Source: an uncultured Roseburia sp. | GTDB taxonomy: Bacteria > Bacillota > Clostridia > Lachnospirales > Lachnospiraceae | Direction: 5' to 3' | DNA: 46,677 bases | NCBI GenBank assembly: GCA_947567625.1 | Contig: CANONN010000026.1 | Coordinates: 1-46,677 of the forward strand | Shown here: positions 7,528 to 45,383 of the stretch, piece after piece | Numbering within the stretch: position 1 is the stretch's first letter | How the letters are laid out: the number at the start of each line of letters is the position of its first letter | Made by a program: the position numbers and the translations under genes | The notes under the pieces: model-generated | Database searches by the model: none | The model's input: the letters and a program-made list of their open reading frames with translations, nothing else | Told to the model about the DNA's origin: nothing

Positions 7528-7623
7528 GCTGACAGATTGAAAAAGAGAGCCATTAAACAGCTGACAGATTGTAAAAGAAAGCTGGAGAACAGCTGACAGA
7601 TTGTAAAAGAGAGCCGGTGAGCC
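7528..7623 (+). repeat. Three tandem copies of a 32-bp unit between the phosphorylase and mutarotase genes
   Basis: GCTGACAGATTG recurs at 7528, 7560 and 7592, a period of exactly 32 bp, each followed by AAAAGAGAGCC-like sequence. Copies differ at a few bases only. The array fills most of the 165-bp spacer and does not encode a gene I recognise. Confidence 0.9.
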
Positions 7624-7679
7624 GATAACAGGCCAAAGGGCCGGAGAACCGGAATGAAATTGGAAAAGGAGAGGAAGCA

Positions 7680-15944: not shown

Positions 15945-16062
15945 CGCACAGCCCGCTTGGTTAGATATACGCGTTCATACGGACTTTGCAGCGAGTGCAA
16001 AGTCCTGAGCTGAACTGTTACGAACGGTTCCCATCAATGCATAAGAAATGACAAAAAAAGCC
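15945..16062. other. Spacer with a perfect 10-bp hairpin
   Basis: No gene is seen. GGACTTTGCA (15981-15990) pairs with TGCAAAGTCC (15996-16005) around a 5-nt loop; no T-run follows. Confidence 0.5.
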
Positions 16063-26764: not shown

Positions 26765-27373
26765 ATGAACATTCACAAAATCATATTAAAATTTGTCAGT
26801 ATCAGTTTTTCGATCTTGGTTACTTTGCTGGTAGCCATAGGTCTGCTTCGGTTGGGGGAATATTGCTATCATTTCGGTTACCGCGTTTTTACCGAGCCGG
26901 CCATGGAAGAGGAGCCGGGAACGGATGTGGTGGTGCTGCTCACAGGCGATATGTCCGAGTATGACATCGGCGGTGCGCTTTTGGAGAAGGGGCTGATTCG
27001 CGACAAGAACCTGTTCTTCGCGCAGCTTATGCTTTCCGCTTATGCGGGAGAGCTGCAGAGCGGCACCTACACGCTGAACACCTCTATGACTGCCAAGGAA
27101 ATGATGGCGGTCATGGCAGCAGATACGGCGGAGAGCACGGAGGAGACCGAAGAGCCGCTTTCGACCGAAGGAACCGGGGCTTCGGAAGCGCCGGGAACCC
27201 TTGACGGAGCCGGTACGAACGAAGATTCCGGTGAGGAAGAGGAAGGCGACGGGCAAGGAAACGATACGCCGGGAGCAGAGGAAGGCGACGGGCAAGGAAA
27301 CGATACGCCGGCAGCAGAGGAAGGCGACGGGCAAGGAAACGATACGCCGGAAGCAGAGGGGAATGAGCCGTGA
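26765..27373 (+). CDS. Membrane protein like the N-terminal part of MltG/YceG, with Asp/Gly repeats
   Basis: Residues about 9-31 are one membrane helix. Residues about 55-120 resemble the small LysM-like domain at the start of MltG (VVVLLTGDMSEYDIGGALLEKGLI, AGELQSGTYTLNTSMTAKEMM). The catalytic transglycosylase domain that should follow is absent. Instead there is an acidic, Ser/Thr/Gly-rich tail holding three 13-residue repeats (EEGDGQGNDTP plus two). The tail would lie outside the membrane. It may be a regulator or decoy of septal or lateral cell wall synthesis; that is a guess. It ends where the next gene begins (GTGA overlap). Confidence 0.78.
   Translation: MNIHKIILKFVSISFSILVTLLVAIGLLRLGEYCYHFGYRVFTEPAMEEEPGTDVVVLLTGDMSEYDIGGALLEKGLIRDKNLFFAQLMLSAYAGELQSGTYTLNTSMTAKEMMAVMAADTAESTEETEEPLSTEGTGASEAPGTLDGAGTNEDSGEEEEGDGQGNDTPGAEEGDGQGNDTPAAEEGDGQGNDTPEAEGNEP
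27239..27355 (+). repeat. Three tandem 39-bp copies inside the MltG-like gene
   Basis: The block GGAAGGCGACGGGCAAGG recurs at 27241, 27280 and 27319, a period of 39 bp, encoding a 13-residue acidic unit. Near identity at DNA level suggests recent expansion by slippage. Confidence 0.95.
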
Positions 27374-40798: not shown

Positions 40799-40847
40799 TT
40801 GGGCCTTGCGATAGGGCAGTTTCGTACCTATTGCAGGGCTCTTTTTA
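40799..40847 (+). terminator. Terminator after tpiA
   Basis: A stem of GGGCCTTGCGATAGG (from 40801) with CCTATTGCAGGGCTC (to 40842), two or three wobble or weak pairs, is followed by TTTTT. The first copy of the dispersed repeat begins at the very next bases. Confidence 0.85.
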
Positions 40848-40930
40848 TGCACAGGGGCGCACAAATGAAATTGTTGCTCGTGCAACGTGCGCCCCGCGCG
40901 GCGAGTAGGGGGAAATCTTCCCTACCCGAT
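40848..40930 (+). repeat. Dispersed structured repeat, copy 1
   Basis: It begins TGCACAGGGG and ends CCCTACCCGAT. It can form two hairpins: an outer GGGGCGCAC/GTGCGCCCC stem with inner GTTGC/GCAAC, and a second GTAGGG...CCCTAC stem. No gene is encoded that I can support. Confidence 0.93.
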
Positions 40931-41019
40931 TGCACAGGGGTGCCCAGATGAAATTGTTGCGCATGCAACGTGCGCCCCGCGCGGCGAGTAGGGGAAGATG
41001 GCTCGTCTCTACCCGATTG
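40931..41019 (+). repeat. Dispersed structured repeat, copy 2 (tandem with copy 1)
   Basis: It starts TGCACAGGGGTGCCCAGATG directly after copy 1. The first hairpin keeps the GTTGC/GCAAC inner stem; the second hairpin is diverged. Confidence 0.93.
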
Positions 41020-41131
41020 TGTATGGGAAGAAGCGCAGTTGCTGTTGTAGAACACGTCCTGTGCGACAAGTAAGAAGATTTTTGTGCAGGAAGTGTGCGA
41101 TCAGTATCTGTAGAAATACGGCAAATATAGG
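41020..41131. other. Spacer before the Septu-like promoter
   Basis: No gene is recognised. AT content rises from about 41060 on, marking the boundary of the lower-GC cassette. Confidence 0.4.
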
Positions 41132-41160
41132 TTGCAGGTGAAAATTGTGTAGAGTATAAT
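41132..41160 (+). promoter_or_regulatory. Promoter of the ATPase-HNH cassette
   Basis: TTGCAG (41132-41137), a 17-bp spacer and TATAAT (41155-41160). The start would be near 41167, which rules out the ATG at 41164 as the first codon. Confidence 0.78.
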
Positions 41161-41187
41161 TGTATGAAAGGAAAAGAAGGTGATAAA

Positions 41188-42441
41188 ATGAAAATAGACT
41201 TTTTAGAACTGCTTAATTTCAGAAATATAAAGCATCAAAAAATAGATTTCAATAATAGAAAATTTGTTGTATTGATTGGGGACAATGGCAGCGGCAAGAC
41301 ATCTATTTTGGAGGCTATTACAAAGGCATTTGTGCCGGTATTGAGAGCAATCAACGGCGAGGCAGTAAAAAAATGTGATTTGACAAATAGTGATATTCGG
41401 TCAGGAGCAGTTGGAACGGCAATTACAGTAGGCATTTCGCTGGATGATGGGCAATATATATGGACAAATAAAAGAAGGTTATCGGCTCAGATGCCATTAG
41501 AAAATAATTCGGAGCAAAAAAGTCCCGGACAAAGTGATTTAAAGAAATTAAAATCTAAATATGTCAGTTGTGTGGAACAGCGGAAATTGCCGTTAGTGTT
41601 ATATTATGGCACCGACAGAATTATTCGTGAAGTTCCAAAACGTGGTCATATTAAGGATTTTAATGTAACGGATGCACTACGAAATTGTTTTGATAATATA
41701 AATTATTTCAGGGATTTTTATGATTGGTTTAAAACAGAAGAAGATATAGAACTTCGAGGTCTCAGAGAAAATATTAATTATAAAAATCCGAAATTAAACT
41801 GTGTCCGTACTGCTTTAGAACGAATGATTAAAGGTTACACAAATTTGAGGATTGAACTGGCTCCTTCCAGAATGATTCTGACAAATGCGGAGGGGGTCGA
41901 TCTACAGGTAGATCAATTGAGCGGTGGATATAAAGCGGTTTTGTCTGTGATGGCAGACATCGCAAAGAGAATGTCTATTGCAAATCCTGATTCAGAGAAT
42001 CCGCTGGAGGAGGAGGCAGTGATTCTGATTGATGAATTAGATTTACATCTTCATCCCAAATGGCAAAAAACAATAGTGGATGATTTGAAAAGAACGTTTC
42101 CAAATTGTCAGTTTATTATATCAACACATTCACCGTTTATTATTCAATCGTTAAATGCGGAAGAACTGTTTGATATTAGTACAATGCAATATGCGGTAGA
42201 AAATGGTAGTTATAATGGATGGAGCATTGATGCGATTCAAGAGCAGAAAATGGGAGTATCACCCAAAACTTCTGTTTTTAATAAACAACTGGAAGATTTT
42301 TCCCGTGCAATGGATCAAGAAAATTATGATGAGGCAAAGGCTTTATATAGCCAATTGAAAAAAATGGTAGATCCTACAAGCCATGAGAGCAAGATATTAG
42401 ATCTGGATATGGAGATGATCGAAGCAGATGATAAAGATTGA
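41188..42441 (+). CDS. Septu-like defence ATPase (PtuA type)
   Basis: A 417-aa ABC/SMC-like ATPase of the RecF/OLD class. Walker A GDNGSGKTS at residues 31-39, signature LSGGYK at 244-249, Walker B VILIDELD at 278-285 and the switch His in STHSP (about 314). An insert of about 200 residues separates Walker A from the signature. There is no TOPRIM domain as in OLD proteins, and the HNH nuclease is a separate gene overlapping by 14 bases; that pairing is the Septu arrangement (PtuA plus PtuB). Start ATG 41188 has AAGGTG six bases ahead. The gene is richer in A/T than its neighbours, which suggests transfer. The trigger is not known. Confidence 0.85.
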   Translation: MKIDFLELLNFRNIKHQKIDFNNRKFVVLIGDNGSGKTSILEAITKAFVPVLRAINGEAVKKCDLTNSDIRSGAVGTAITVGISLDDGQYIWTNKRRLSAQMPLENNSEQKSPGQSDLKKLKSKYVSCVEQRKLPLVLYYGTDRIIREVPKRGHIKDFNVTDALRNCFDNINYFRDFYDWFKTEEDIELRGLRENINYKNPKLNCVRTALERMIKGYTNLRIELAPSRMILTNAEGVDLQVDQLSGGYKAVLSVMADIAKRMSIANPDSENPLEEEAVILIDELDLHLHPKWQKTIVDDLKRTFPNCQFIISTHSPFIIQSLNAEELFDISTMQYAVENGSYNGWSIDAIQEQKMGVSPKTSVFNKQLEDFSRAMDQENYDEAKALYSQLKKMVDPTSHESKILDLDMEMIEADDKD

Positions 42442-43174
42442 GCGAGGGGAGCGCCCGAAAGCGTTGACATTGGAAGTTTGTGAGGAGTTGACGAAAATAT
42501 ACTCTGAAAATCGTGATAGGGATGTTTGGAATTGTCCCAAGATAAAAAAGCCTTTAAAAGAAGCATTACTTAAAATGAGTCGAGGTAAATGCGTATACTG
42601 TGAATGTATATTGAATATAGAGTCAAAAGATGTCACGATAGATCATTTTTTGCCAAAATCGACTCACGCGAATGAGGTGGTCAAGTGGGAGAATTTATTG
42701 CCTGCTTGTTTGCGTTGCAACAGAGAGAAGGGAGATTATGAAGGTATAATCGTAAATCCTTGTGTGGACAGTCCAAAGGATTATATCGCATTAGATTCCA
42801 AAAGCAGATATCGTTTGAGAGGGATTGATGAGAAGGGCATAGGGAAAAACACAATCATTTCAGTCAAGCTAAATGATATTCAAAGGGTAATGGTTCCGAG
42901 AATGATTGAATGGGAAATTATTCGTCAAAGATTGGTTAATATTTTAGAAGATCTGGAAGAAAGAGGATATCATAAGAAATATAAAAGCCGTTTGGAGGTT
43001 CTTATGAGCGAATGTATGCCTGATTGTTCTTATGCTGCAATAAAGGCTGCTAATATGCTGGATGATGATAATTATAAGAGAATAAAAGATATTTTAACGG
43101 TCGAGGGTAAATGGACTGATAAGTTAGAAATATATGAGGATACAATGAAAAATATTTGTTTGCAATTCGTCTAA
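42428..43174 (+). CDS. Septu-like HNH endonuclease (PtuB type, TIGR02646-like)
   Basis: The 248-aa protein starts MIKIERGERPKALT, typical of the TIGR02646/PtuB group. The HNH core is complete: CVYC (Cys55, Cys58), DHFLPKS with Asp72-His73, WENLLPACLRC (Asn89, Cys94, Cys97) and NREKGDYEG. The four Cys hold zinc and the His is the catalytic base. C-terminal helices (about 150-248) may bind the ATPase. It overlaps the ATPase stop by 14 bases, so the two are made together. In Septu systems the nuclease attacks invading DNA under control of the ATPase. The same HNH family also accompanies some retrons, but no reverse transcriptase is present here. Confidence 0.86.
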   Translation: MIKIERGERPKALTLEVCEELTKIYSENRDRDVWNCPKIKKPLKEALLKMSRGKCVYCECILNIESKDVTIDHFLPKSTHANEVVKWENLLPACLRCNREKGDYEGIIVNPCVDSPKDYIALDSKSRYRLRGIDEKGIGKNTIISVKLNDIQRVMVPRMIEWEIIRQRLVNILEDLEERGYHKKYKSRLEVLMSECMPDCSYAAIKAANMLDDDNYKRIKDILTVEGKWTDKLEIYEDTMKNICLQFV

Positions 43175-43220
43175 AGGGGCAAAAGTGTTTGTGGGCCAAA
43201 TACTTTTGCCCCTTGTTTTC
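43174..43220 (+). terminator. Terminator of the ATPase-HNH cassette
   Basis: AAGGGGCAAAAGT (43174-43186) pairs perfectly with ACTTTTGCCCCTT (43202-43214), then GTTTTC. Copy 3 of the dispersed repeat begins two bases later. Confidence 0.92.
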
Positions 43221-43221
43221 T

Positions 43222-43307
43222 TGCACAGGGGTGCCCAGATGAAATTGTTGCTCACGCAACGTGCGCCCCGTGCGGCGAGTAGGGGGGATAATCTTCCTTA
43301 CTCGATT
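43222..43307 (+). repeat. Dispersed structured repeat, copy 3
   Basis: TGCACAGGGGTGCCCAGATG at its start and ACTCGATT at its end match copies 1-2 at 40848-41019. The second hairpin is kept by wobble pairs (GAGTAGGGGGGA with TCTTCCTTACTC), so structure is retained while sequence differs. Confidence 0.93.
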
Positions 43308-43341: not shown

Positions 43342-43374
43342 TGCATAGACATGATAGTGGGAGGGGGTGAACGG

Positions 43375-43842
43375 TTGCTTGTCATTCATGGAAAACGCAT
43401 AGAGGAGGTCGACGATCCCGTTTTGTGCAGGGCATTTGGATACAGCTATCAGAGAAATGAAGTGATCGCGCAGATTATTGACTGGTGTTTGGGAAACGGA
43501 ATGCATCGATTTCCCTCGATCGACAAATTTAAACGATTTGTATTGGACGAAGGAAGCGATATGAAAGTCCTCACGATCTTATGTACACATCCAATATATC
43601 CGGGGCCGTATACCATACATATGCAGGGAAACAGAGCGGACGACTTTGACGAGGCAAACCGCAGGGCGGGTTTATGGCAGACACCGGAAGGATATACATG
43701 GCATCATAAGGAGGGGATCGTAAAAAGCGGAAAAGAATATCTATGCGATATGTATCTGATTGCTTCGGCTTATCATGGCAGTCGCCGGCACAGGGGCGGC
43801 GTTTATGAGTACGAACACCTGACGGGCAGGACATACGGATAA
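43375..43842 (+). CDS. Free-standing WHH-type HNH/ENDO VII nuclease domain protein
   Basis: About 155 residues. The C-terminal half carries DFDEANRRAGLWQTPEGYTW followed by HHKEG (W109-H110-H111 when counted from 43375) and later His134, His139 and RGG. This is the order found in the WHH/LHH class of HNH/ENDO VII nuclease toxins, usually the tail of large secreted polymorphic toxins. Here no secretion or repeat domain precedes it. I favour TTG 43375, because GGAGGGGGTG lies five bases ahead; ATG 43351 has no ribosome site. The N-terminal 60 residues match nothing I know. It may be a defence or housekeeping nuclease, or a toxin remnant. Confidence 0.72.
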   Translation: MLVIHGKRIEEVDDPVLCRAFGYSYQRNEVIAQIIDWCLGNGMHRFPSIDKFKRFVLDEGSDMKVLTILCTHPIYPGPYTIHMQGNRADDFDEANRRAGLWQTPEGYTWHHKEGIVKSGKEYLCDMYLIASAYHGSRRHRGGVYEYEHLTGRTYG

Positions 43843-43882
43843 TGTAAGCTTTTGGGGAGAAAATAAATGCGATTTGGAGCGC

Positions 43883-44030
43883 CGTTGGGCAGTGAAAGAA
43901 TGATACGGTGAAACGGTACCGTCGAGCAGTGAAAGAGTGATGCGGTGAAACGGCGCCGTCGGGCAGTGAAAGAGTGATGCGGTGAAACGGCACCGCCGGG
44001 CAGTGAAAGAGTGATGCGGTGAAACGGCCC
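43883..44030 (+). repeat. Four tandem copies of a 37-bp minisatellite
   Basis: CAGTGAAAGA recurs at 43890, 43927, 43964 and 44001, an exact 37-bp period. Each of the first three units can form a small hairpin CGGTG-AAACGG-YRCCG in which changes keep pairing (TACCG, CGCCG, CACCG). No spacers of equal length between identical repeats exist, so it is not CRISPR. Confidence 0.92.
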
Positions 44031-44084
44031 CTTTAAGCAACGAAAAAATATTAGCGGTTTAGGCCAGAAGGGAAACGGAGCAAT

Positions 44085-44323: not shown

Positions 44324-44812
44324 GTGAAGCTTGGCATTAACGAGTTAATAGAATCGATCGGCAAGGCCGTATCGGAGGCACAGCAGAATATCGAGTTACA
44401 TTCCCTGTACCGTTTTTTCAATTACTTTGAGGAGGAGGCGGAAGACGGGGAGCGTGATGAGGGAGGCCAGGTATTGTCTCCGAAGACGGCCAAAATGGCT
44501 GTACCAAAGAGCGATGATATCACCGGCACGGTGGTAACGGAGATACCGCTGCTCTCGCTGGTTCCTCATAATCAGGTTTCGCTGCAACAGGTTTCGGTAA
44601 AAATGAAAGTCTGTCTGTATACGGATGACACAGATGAAATCATGGCGGACATGAATGTGCCGGCGAGAAATGTGTCCGCTTCGCCCGACGCGTCGGGCGA
44701 AGCGTGCAGCGGCGCCACGACGCAGATGCACGAGGTGGAACTTGTATATAATGTATCCGAAAAATCGGAAGGTTTGTCGAGAGTGGTAGAGAACATAACC
44801 AAAACAATATAA
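44324..44812 (+). CDS. DUF2589-like protein, divergent paralogue with palindromic insert
   Basis: The 162-aa protein starts with a helix (INELIESIGKAVSEAQQNIE), then EIPLLSLVPHNQVSLQQVSV followed by KMKVCL. This aligns with APILSLVPVPAFTMDEATVR in the next gene, so the two are paralogues. Residues SASPDASGEAC are encoded by a 28-bp perfect palindrome (44677-44704) and look like an insert. Start is GTG 44324 with AAAGGATGG ahead. It has no signal or membrane segment. Function is unknown; the pair could assemble into one structure. Confidence 0.75.
   Translation: MKLGINELIESIGKAVSEAQQNIELHSLYRFFNYFEEEAEDGERDEGGQVLSPKTAKMAVPKSDDITGTVVTEIPLLSLVPHNQVSLQQVSVKMKVCLYTDDTDEIMADMNVPARNVSASPDASGEACSGATTQMHEVELVYNVSEKSEGLSRVVENITKTI
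44677..44704 (+). repeat. 28-bp perfect palindrome inside a coding sequence
   Basis: The 14 bases CGCTTCGCCCGACG (44677-44690) are followed at once by their exact reverse complement (44691-44704). It is GC-rich, in frame, and absent from the paralogue that follows. Confidence 0.97.
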
Positions 44813-44828
44813 ATCGGGAGGGTTTTAT

Positions 44829-45383
44829 ATGGCTGATTTAGGGAAAAGTTTTGCATCGCTGCCGATCGGACAGCTGATCTGTTCGCCGATTCTCGCCGTT
44901 GCGCAGGGGCAGGCGGAATTGTGCAGAGTGTATCTGGATTACTTATTTAAACTTGCATTTATCGAGGGAGATCCCGATAAGGGTGTGAACGTTGTGAAGT
45001 TTACGCTGAACAGACAGATCGTCGACGAGAACGGTGACAGCAAAATACAGCCGATTCAGGTGGAAGCGCCGATCTTGTCGTTAGTTCCGGTACCGGCTTT
45101 TACTATGGACGAGGCGACGGTGCGTTTTACGATGGAGGTAAAGGAGGTAACTTCTCAAAAAGATATTAACAAATCCGAGAGTTCCTATGGTACCGGCTTT
45201 TCCTACTGGGGTTACAGTGCCAATATCAGCGGAAAAGTCACCGCTTCTTCTGAAAATACGCGCACCAGCGACCAGTCCGCAAAATATGAGATCTATGCGA
45301 GGGCGGCTCAGCAGCCGGCCGCAGAGGGTATGGCGAAGCTTACGAATGTCTTTGCATCGGTGATTGAGCCGATTGAAGTGTAG
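44829..45383 (+). CDS. DUF2589 domain protein
   Basis: The 184-aa protein has the DUF2589 pattern: an N-terminal helix with GQLICSPILAVAQGQAELCR, VNVVKFTLNRQIVDENG, then APILSLVPVPAFTMDEATVR leading into FTMEVKEV, a Ser/Tyr/Gly-rich middle and a C-terminal KYEIYARAAQQP helix, expected to be a beta-sandwich with helical ends. Function is not established. GGGAGGG precedes ATG 44829. It is the last gene before a strong terminator and probably shares a transcript with the genes from 43375 on. Confidence 0.85.
   Translation: MADLGKSFASLPIGQLICSPILAVAQGQAELCRVYLDYLFKLAFIEGDPDKGVNVVKFTLNRQIVDENGDSKIQPIQVEAPILSLVPVPAFTMDEATVRFTMEVKEVTSQKDINKSESSYGTGFSYWGYSANISGKVTASSENTRTSDQSAKYEIYARAAQQPAAEGMAKLTNVFASVIEPIEV

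Follow-up and report, generated by a model that had tools for sequence, protein, structure and literature searches.

In the 46,677-nucleotide contig CANONN010000026.1 of an uncultured Roseburia sp. (GenBank assembly GCA_947567625.1), which was analysed whole and is called the window below, a two-gene Septu-type anti-phage pair, ptuA and ptuB, lies between copies of a structured repeat. An earlier note on this DNA had read the arrangement as a mobile defence cassette that entered by recombination between the repeats. We consider it likely that two unrelated things stand side by side here, namely an ordinary Septu system and copies of a small non-coding element, mobile and with ends and a target like those of class C group II (IIC) introns. 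The repeats form a genome-wide family behind transcription terminators, which speaks against their having recombined to bring in the pair, and the pair is bracketed by them because tpiA, upstream, and ptuB both end in terminators.

A repeat family behind terminators

Both the repeat search and a covariance model recover the two units upstream of the pair and the one downstream that the earlier note had described, all on the forward strand. Copy 1 (40848..40930; 85.2 bits, 4.2e-17) and copy 2 (40931..41017; 68.5 bits), which abuts it and is 86% identical to it, have as their target the intrinsic terminator of tpiA (40800..40847, forward strand; fold of −27.3 kcal/mol, z −6.4), with the T-tract TTTTTA. 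Copy 3 (43222..43306; 76.9 bits, 3.4e-15) has as its target the intrinsic terminator of ptuB (43174..43221, forward strand; −27.6 kcal/mol, z −5.5), an 18-pair stem followed by GTTTTCT. The hairpin of the latter, with its stem (43174-43214), is clear in the terminator scan and in the fold; the tpiA terminator passes the automatic test described below and is absent from the list of the scan.

The element is about 83 nt long, non-coding and made of two hairpins, with units running TGCRCAG...CCTACTCGAT, and is too short for an open reading frame (ORF) of its own. Counted on the 92 of 95 units that have at least 75 nt, the last 10 nt are CCTACTCGAT in 49, which is the commonest ending, and the starts are mostly TGCAC (TGCACAG in 49), with fewer TGCGC (TGCGCAG in 16). 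That the repeats are not due to chance is borne out in the window's genome (3.42 Mb in 110 contigs, the window being the whole of contig C26), where a DNA search gives 20 matches and the covariance model, R1, gives at least 35. R1 was built on 22 units (alignment A1, from which a short unit of 48 nt, a unit truncated at a contig end and some others were left out, and in which the identical unit of loci L167 and L168 stands once). All its genome counts are lower bounds: matches are present in at least 16 of 61 genomes of the genus, with up to at least 47 in a single genome, and, at 1e-6, in at least 17 of 200 genomes of the family, each of a different genus and the window's own included.

For the sites, we used 95 of 98 R1 matches, dropping three weak ones on the opposite strand. 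These form 77 arrays in 76 sources, which were chosen from the DNA-search and R1 matches and are a part of all R1 matches; by genome, the arrays number 23 in G000, 22 in G004 (flagged as 7% contaminated), 12 in G075, 8 in G048, 7 in G056, 2 in G020 and one each in G019, G041 and G058. An automatic test, which asks for a hairpin with 5 or more pairs and −5.5 kcal/mol or better, followed near the element by 8 bases with 5 or more T, places 62 of the 77 arrays directly behind an intrinsic terminator. It is passed by 11 of 385 random positions and, in the same loci apart from that of the window, by 13 of 574 positions in non-coding DNA. Several of the 15 arrays that fail are terminator-like by eye, and both copies between ffh and rpsP, discussed below, are among the failures. 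An A directly precedes 66 of the 77 arrays, the six bases in front of the array are TTTTTA in 39, and the element is oriented along the terminator's strand. Several copies stand between T-box-type terminators and the next gene; the T-box of L167 scores 91.1 bits in Rfam, just below the cut-off of 93, and the other T-box motifs were recognised by eye. Outside the genus, 10 of the 11 copies read sit, by eye, behind a T-tract of this type.

Structure of the element

Hairpin A has an outer and an inner stem, with a bulge of about 10 nt between them on the 5′ side that often contains GGAA, while hairpin B is formed by CGAGTAGG...CCTACTCG and carries GTAG/CTAC motifs. In a model-fitted alignment of the 98 matches, which leans toward the structure, 92.6% of cells are paired and 304 both-side changes are counted, compared with 112 in shuffles. 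Nearly the same fold is predicted from a sequence-only alignment of 33 copies chosen for diversity (A3, without L356, the sole copy outside the genus that is not behind a terminator), and 18 of its 26 pairs show compensated changes. Rfam gives no match in the window at gathering scores, and a search of four loci with a limit of E ≤ 1 gives none to the element.

Short forms of about 32-48 nt also occur (L168 after 2823, L173 2578-2625, L174 after 2468 and L366 after 2468), which do not have hairpin A and keep a TGCRCAGG-like start and a CTCGAT-like end. Other palindromic repeats, of the type TTAGRAATTGCGT...ACGCATTCTAA or alike, are found in several genomes of the genus, both in ffh-rpsP spacers (L277, L278, L282, L283, L286 and L291) and beside the element (L170, L172 and L173).

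Insertion sites and recent movement

Between ffh and rpsP of G004, an 82-nt unit lies between TTTTTGA and TAAATAATC, and in G064 both flanks are joined, giving the empty site. In G048, an 87-nt unit of a different sequence type occupies the identical base, G056 being empty there, and two unlike copies have therefore entered at this one point, TTTTTnA^T. At two more G004 sites the comparison with G064 is exact apart from one base beside the insertion point. Neither duplication nor loss of the target is seen at empty sites, where the boundary is ambiguous by one T. In total, 16 filled and empty pairs were aligned, of which four are exact or nearly exact (L176/L268, L250/L284, L229/L328 and L228/L331), one shows a rough insertion only (L252/L330), two contain element-like sequence in both members (L254/L338 and L251/L335), and the other nine (L230, L245, L234, L232, L237, and further partners of L230 and L228) differ too much around the site for a judgement.

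Sixteen pairs of neighbouring units are separated by 0 nt in 13 cases and by 4, 5 and 28 nt in the other three, and the identity between the abutting units ranges from 0.58 to 0.98. Head-to-tail arrays of unlike neighbours fit repeated insertion at one point, and tandem duplication is a possible origin of alike neighbours. Two pairs of identical units are found behind different terminators, at different loci of the window's genome, and movement was therefore recent. Taking sites and empty sites together, we are nearly certain that the element is mobile and directed to terminator-like T-tracts. It would insert on the terminator's strand, immediately 3′ of the T-tract (TTTTTA^T), without duplicating or losing target bases, and repeated insertion at one point would produce the head-to-tail arrays, as the abutting and often unlike neighbours suggest.

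Possible relation to group II introns

Group IIC introns insert just behind intrinsic terminators, as described in passages of three reports (PMC8919778, PMC4424553, PMC7161350). The introns of the genus used for comparison were located with the maturase profile PF08388. At L359-L365 and L375, their 5′ starts read TGCGCGCC or TGTGCGCC behind T-rich tracts, the exact 5′ base being unproven, and several are preceded, by eye, by a terminator hairpin. Ten intron 3′ ends read CCTACTCGAT in six cases, CCTACCCGAT in two, and CCTACTCGAC and TCTACTCGAC in one each. Rfam detects group II domains in five of six intron loci, and three Intron_gpII matches end exactly at the shared 3′ end. The two intron reverse transcriptases (RTs) that were tested are group II maturases (TIGR04416), matching the GsI-IIC RT (6ar1) at 6.9e-114 and 1.8e-110, and LtrA, which we take to be a IIA protein, at 1e-39 to 1e-41; one intron RT matches 7uim at 1.1e-262. 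From the strength of these matches, and not from a tree, the tested RTs are taken as class C. On contig C57 of the window's genome, an intron remnant ends in CTCGAT and is directly followed by TGCGCAGG (L366).

The element, which may descend from, mimic or parasitise these introns, is best read as a non-autonomous, miniature relative of them, because its 3′ end, type of target and orientation match those of the IIC introns of the genus, and its 5′ start is similar. It would then be moved by the intron machinery acting in trans, through integration of its RNA and reverse transcription, a mechanism to which we give, at best, an even chance. Somewhat below this, and thus tentative, stands the fuller proposal of a SINE (short interspersed nuclear element)-like retroelement: a ribozyme-less and protein-less RNA of about 83 nt, with IIC intron ends and a structured body, that would spread in Lachnospiraceae terminators with a borrowed intron RT/maturase.

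Several observations weigh against a descent from, or mobilization by, IIC introns. R1 was searched against five intron loci and has no match in any of them, nor in the TGCGCAGG that follows the L366 intron. Between the ends, the similarity of element and introns is not convincing: of 24 comparisons, just 11 have their best local match stopping exactly at the 3′ end of the intron, and two reach a score that as few as 1 of 200 shuffles equals. Domain V was not found in the element (no Rfam match at E ≤ 1 in four loci). In our own reading of intron domain VI, GAG-AGG pairs with CCT-A-CTC and the branch A is bulged, whereas in the element GAG-U-AGG pairs the A, which is sometimes replaced (UA to CG). 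At the 5′ end, TGCRC is only loosely like the start of the introns, and resembles, but differs from, GUGYG. At the 3′ end, CTACTCGAY also closes other group II introns (L368 and L374), and is therefore a group II mark that is no proof of IIC descent. The maturase profile PF08388 is matched in 3 of 11 element-bearing genomes and in 8 of 17 without the element (taken from 16 carriers and 45 non-carriers), and both matches in the window's genome contain a stop. Finally, at the cleanest empty site, that of ffh-rpsP, the T-run covers the ffh stop codon and the hairpin is moderate (−9.8 and −9.3 kcal/mol); the site fails the terminator test and is terminator-like, not a full terminator. Given the counts above, a resident maturase was rejected as a marker of element activity.

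Alternative explanations

The mover could instead be a single-strand DNA transposase, the element being of the IS200/IS605 or REP type and carried as single-stranded DNA by a Y1 HUH transposase or a RAYT. Two imperfect hairpins, no target duplication and insertion behind a short conserved target also fit HUH elements, and the GTAG/CTAC motifs of hairpin B point the same way. However, the 3′ end of the element matches group II introns instead, and no Y1_Tnp was found in the window's genome, the only element-bearing genome in which it was searched, with controls positive in 5 of 14. We consider such a mover unlikely, and leave the remaining probability to other means of movement. A DNA transposon of the miniature inverted-repeat (MITE) kind was rejected, since the element has no terminal inverted repeats (its ends, TGCRCAG and CTCGAT, are not inverted repeats of each other) and there is no duplication at empty sites.

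An immobile host device, either a regulatory RNA or a transcription element held behind terminators by selection, would account for the strong structural covariation, for the orientation shared with the terminator and for the several copies between T-box-type terminators and the following gene. It is quite unlikely in view of the patchy distribution (at least 16 of 61 genomes), the precise empty sites, the identical copies at different loci and the copies that follow plain 3′ terminators, for example those of tpiA and ptuB. That the units are degenerate remnants of full-length group IIC introns, with the interior deleted in place, is highly improbable: ends and sites are common to both and the window's genome does contain broken introns, but the fairly uniform size, the identical copies at different loci and the covarying body indicate replication as a unit.

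The reading of the earlier note, in which direct repeats bound a Septu cassette that enters or leaves by recombination between them, has in its favour the direct repeats on both sides, the low G+C content (GC) of the pair and the absence of a PtuA of more than 40% identity from 24 genomes of the same genus, several of them incomplete. It is nevertheless very unlikely, given the recurrence of the repeats behind terminators throughout the genome. In addition, the downstream copy closes ptuB while the extra DNA relative to other genomes continues for about 4 kb beyond it. The DNA read around six PtuAB relatives (L081-L086; 6.9-17.2 kb, with only 242 bases upstream in L084) has no copy, yet these pairs too are AT-rich with respect to their own loci.

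Comparison with known elements and significance

The element, read as a miniature intron relative, resembles class C group II introns in its site behind terminators, its orientation, its 3′ end CCTACTCGAT and a similar 5′ start. It differs from them in its length (about 83 nt, compared with about 1.9 kb), in having no reverse transcriptase and no detectable domain V, in the paired branch A, and in a covarying hairpin A of its own. The pneumococcal repeats BOX, RUP and SPRITE, in the passages of the report seen (PMC3049150), are likewise non-coding, structured and small, often lying close to the ends of genes, and one BOX forms a composite with T-boxes. They are set apart from the element by that description, which in the same passages does not include insertion at terminator T-tracts, and SPRITE is itself terminator-like (PMC3049150). 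Among open-licence PMC papers on miniature or non-autonomous group II derivatives and on terminator-anchored repeats, we found no description of the element.

Septu is already known and its presence here is routine, and it is the repeat family that matters more: a mobile element of very small size, under structural constraint, whose target is precise and probably mild. Group II introns are the proposed ancestors of spliceosomal introns, and the element has a group II-like end, while no ribozyme core could be detected in it. Should group II machinery prove to move it in trans, there would be a bacterial counterpart of SINEs, and the natural copies would show which end sequences are minimally required for integration directed to terminators. 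For readers of genomes there is also a caution, in that repeats bracketing a gene may just mark two terminators.

The Septu pair

The gene ptuA (41188..42441, forward strand) encodes the Septu ATPase, and ptuB (42428..43174, forward strand) the Septu HNH endonuclease. Both reading frames are complete, and they share 14 nt, the overlap that the earlier note had given. An alternative in-frame ATG for ptuA is present at 41164, and the starts of the relatives fit 41188. The profile searches place the pair in the Septu families, in agreement with the original assignment: PtuA matches the PADLOC profile PtuA1 (PDLC00271) at 8.9e-109 and PtuB matches PtuB1 (PDLC00342) at 2.9e-64, and PtuB is also above the cut-off for PF01844 in Pfam. 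The finer placing of the nuclease as of the PtuB/TIGR02646 kind holds for PtuB, while TIGR02646 itself, with 46.0 bits for a cut-off of 52.15, is narrowly missed. Both proteins fall under the NCBIfam PtuA/PtuB equivalog cut-offs, those profiles being named for the effectors of retron Ec78.

Residues 1-385 of PtuA align with the solved PtuA 8ee4 (2.2e-32), presumably that of an E. coli Septu system, and the protein also aligns with the PtuA of retrons Ec78 and Ec83. In eight aligned sequences the Walker A residues, SGGYK, Walker B and THS of PtuA are invariant (positions G31, N33, G34, G36, K37, T38, S245-K249, D282, E283 and H314), as are D72H73, N89, C94 and C97N98 of PtuB in six; no solved relative of PtuB was found at 0.001. 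The two genes are adjacent and co-oriented, with an identical layout in L081-L086, whose PtuA proteins are 68-80% identical to that of the window. In one of these relatives, ptuB (L083 9241-9984) has an in-frame stop.

Judged from its sequence, the pair is an ordinary, routine two-gene Septu member. It shares with Septu type I the two-gene ATPase/HNH organization and its motifs, and differs in the missed NCBIfam equivalog and TIGR02646 cut-offs and in the absence of a solved PtuB relative at 0.001. Retron I-A systems (Ec78 and Ec83) use the same effector families, PtuAB, but the window locus has no RT or msr-msd seen among the neighbouring genes: no RT was found beside PtuAB in a Pfam scan of PtuA and the ORFs after it in the window, seven in all, nor by eye in the rest up to gpmI and in the glycolytic genes, and no retron msr-msd RNA was matched by Rfam in the window. 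By analogy with its family, PtuA, an ABC-type ATPase, would hold and control PtuB, which on phage infection would cut nucleic acid and so stop phage growth. In the Septu relatives studied, the nucleic acid cut is phage DNA or host tRNA.

The pair had also been credited with a promoter and a terminator of its own. The ptuB terminator is clear; the promoter is weaker, a candidate read by eye (TTGCAG-17-TATAAT, 41132..41160, forward strand) that the promoter scan does not list, in a region where promoter-like sites are at chance level (8 found, compared with 8.7 in shuffles). The lower GC of the pair is as reported, with 0.356 for PtuA and 0.360 for PtuB, compared with 0.51 for gap-pgk-tpiA, 0.498 for the downstream genes and 0.50 for the window. 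In the six relatives, too, the pair has a GC of 0.34-0.42 where the locus has 0.42-0.52, and part of the low GC thus comes with the pair itself.

Genomic context of the pair

Mobility of the locus in a wide sense is plausible, and to this extent the idea of a mobile cassette stands, without the repeats as its boundaries. In the relatives, a CapA-like gene, gpmI or both come after tpiA, while in the window's species about 6.7 kb lie between tpiA and the CapA-like gene; the names CapA-like, gpmI, Trx-like, integrase-like and methyltransferase-like were given by eye or from recall, with no profile behind them. This insert contains PtuAB, an ORF with a WHH nuclease domain (43351..43842, forward strand; PF14414, 2e-7), a 74-aa ORF, two adjacent DUF2589 genes (44324..45383, forward strand; PF11655), and TrxR-like and Trx-like genes. 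Its end is seen on contig L087 of a near-identical genome (99.4% over 4986 bases), which begins inside ptuA and extends beyond the window end, with the order TrxR-like, Trx-like, CapA-like gene and gpmI (names partly by eye).

Among 15 tpiA loci of the genus that were read, gpmI, recognised by its start, lies within 0.2-4.1 kb in 10, often after a CapA-like gene; L075 is probably one more, and two loci end too early. In L078, the second tpiA copy of G004, tpiA is followed by an integrase-like ORF, and in L079 (G008, another species) by a methyltransferase-like gene and a next ORF, and this spot may collect defence genes.

A tandem array of 37-bp units (43879-44063) separates the WHH gene from the ORF that follows. 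A second interspersed repeat, at 15952-16025 of the window, 5527-5600 of L087 and 7801-7860 of L086, is common to another Lachnospiraceae genome and is also found near the CapA-like gene. Elsewhere in the window, tandem repeats of 39-bp (27238-27359) and 32-bp (7528-7631) units are present.

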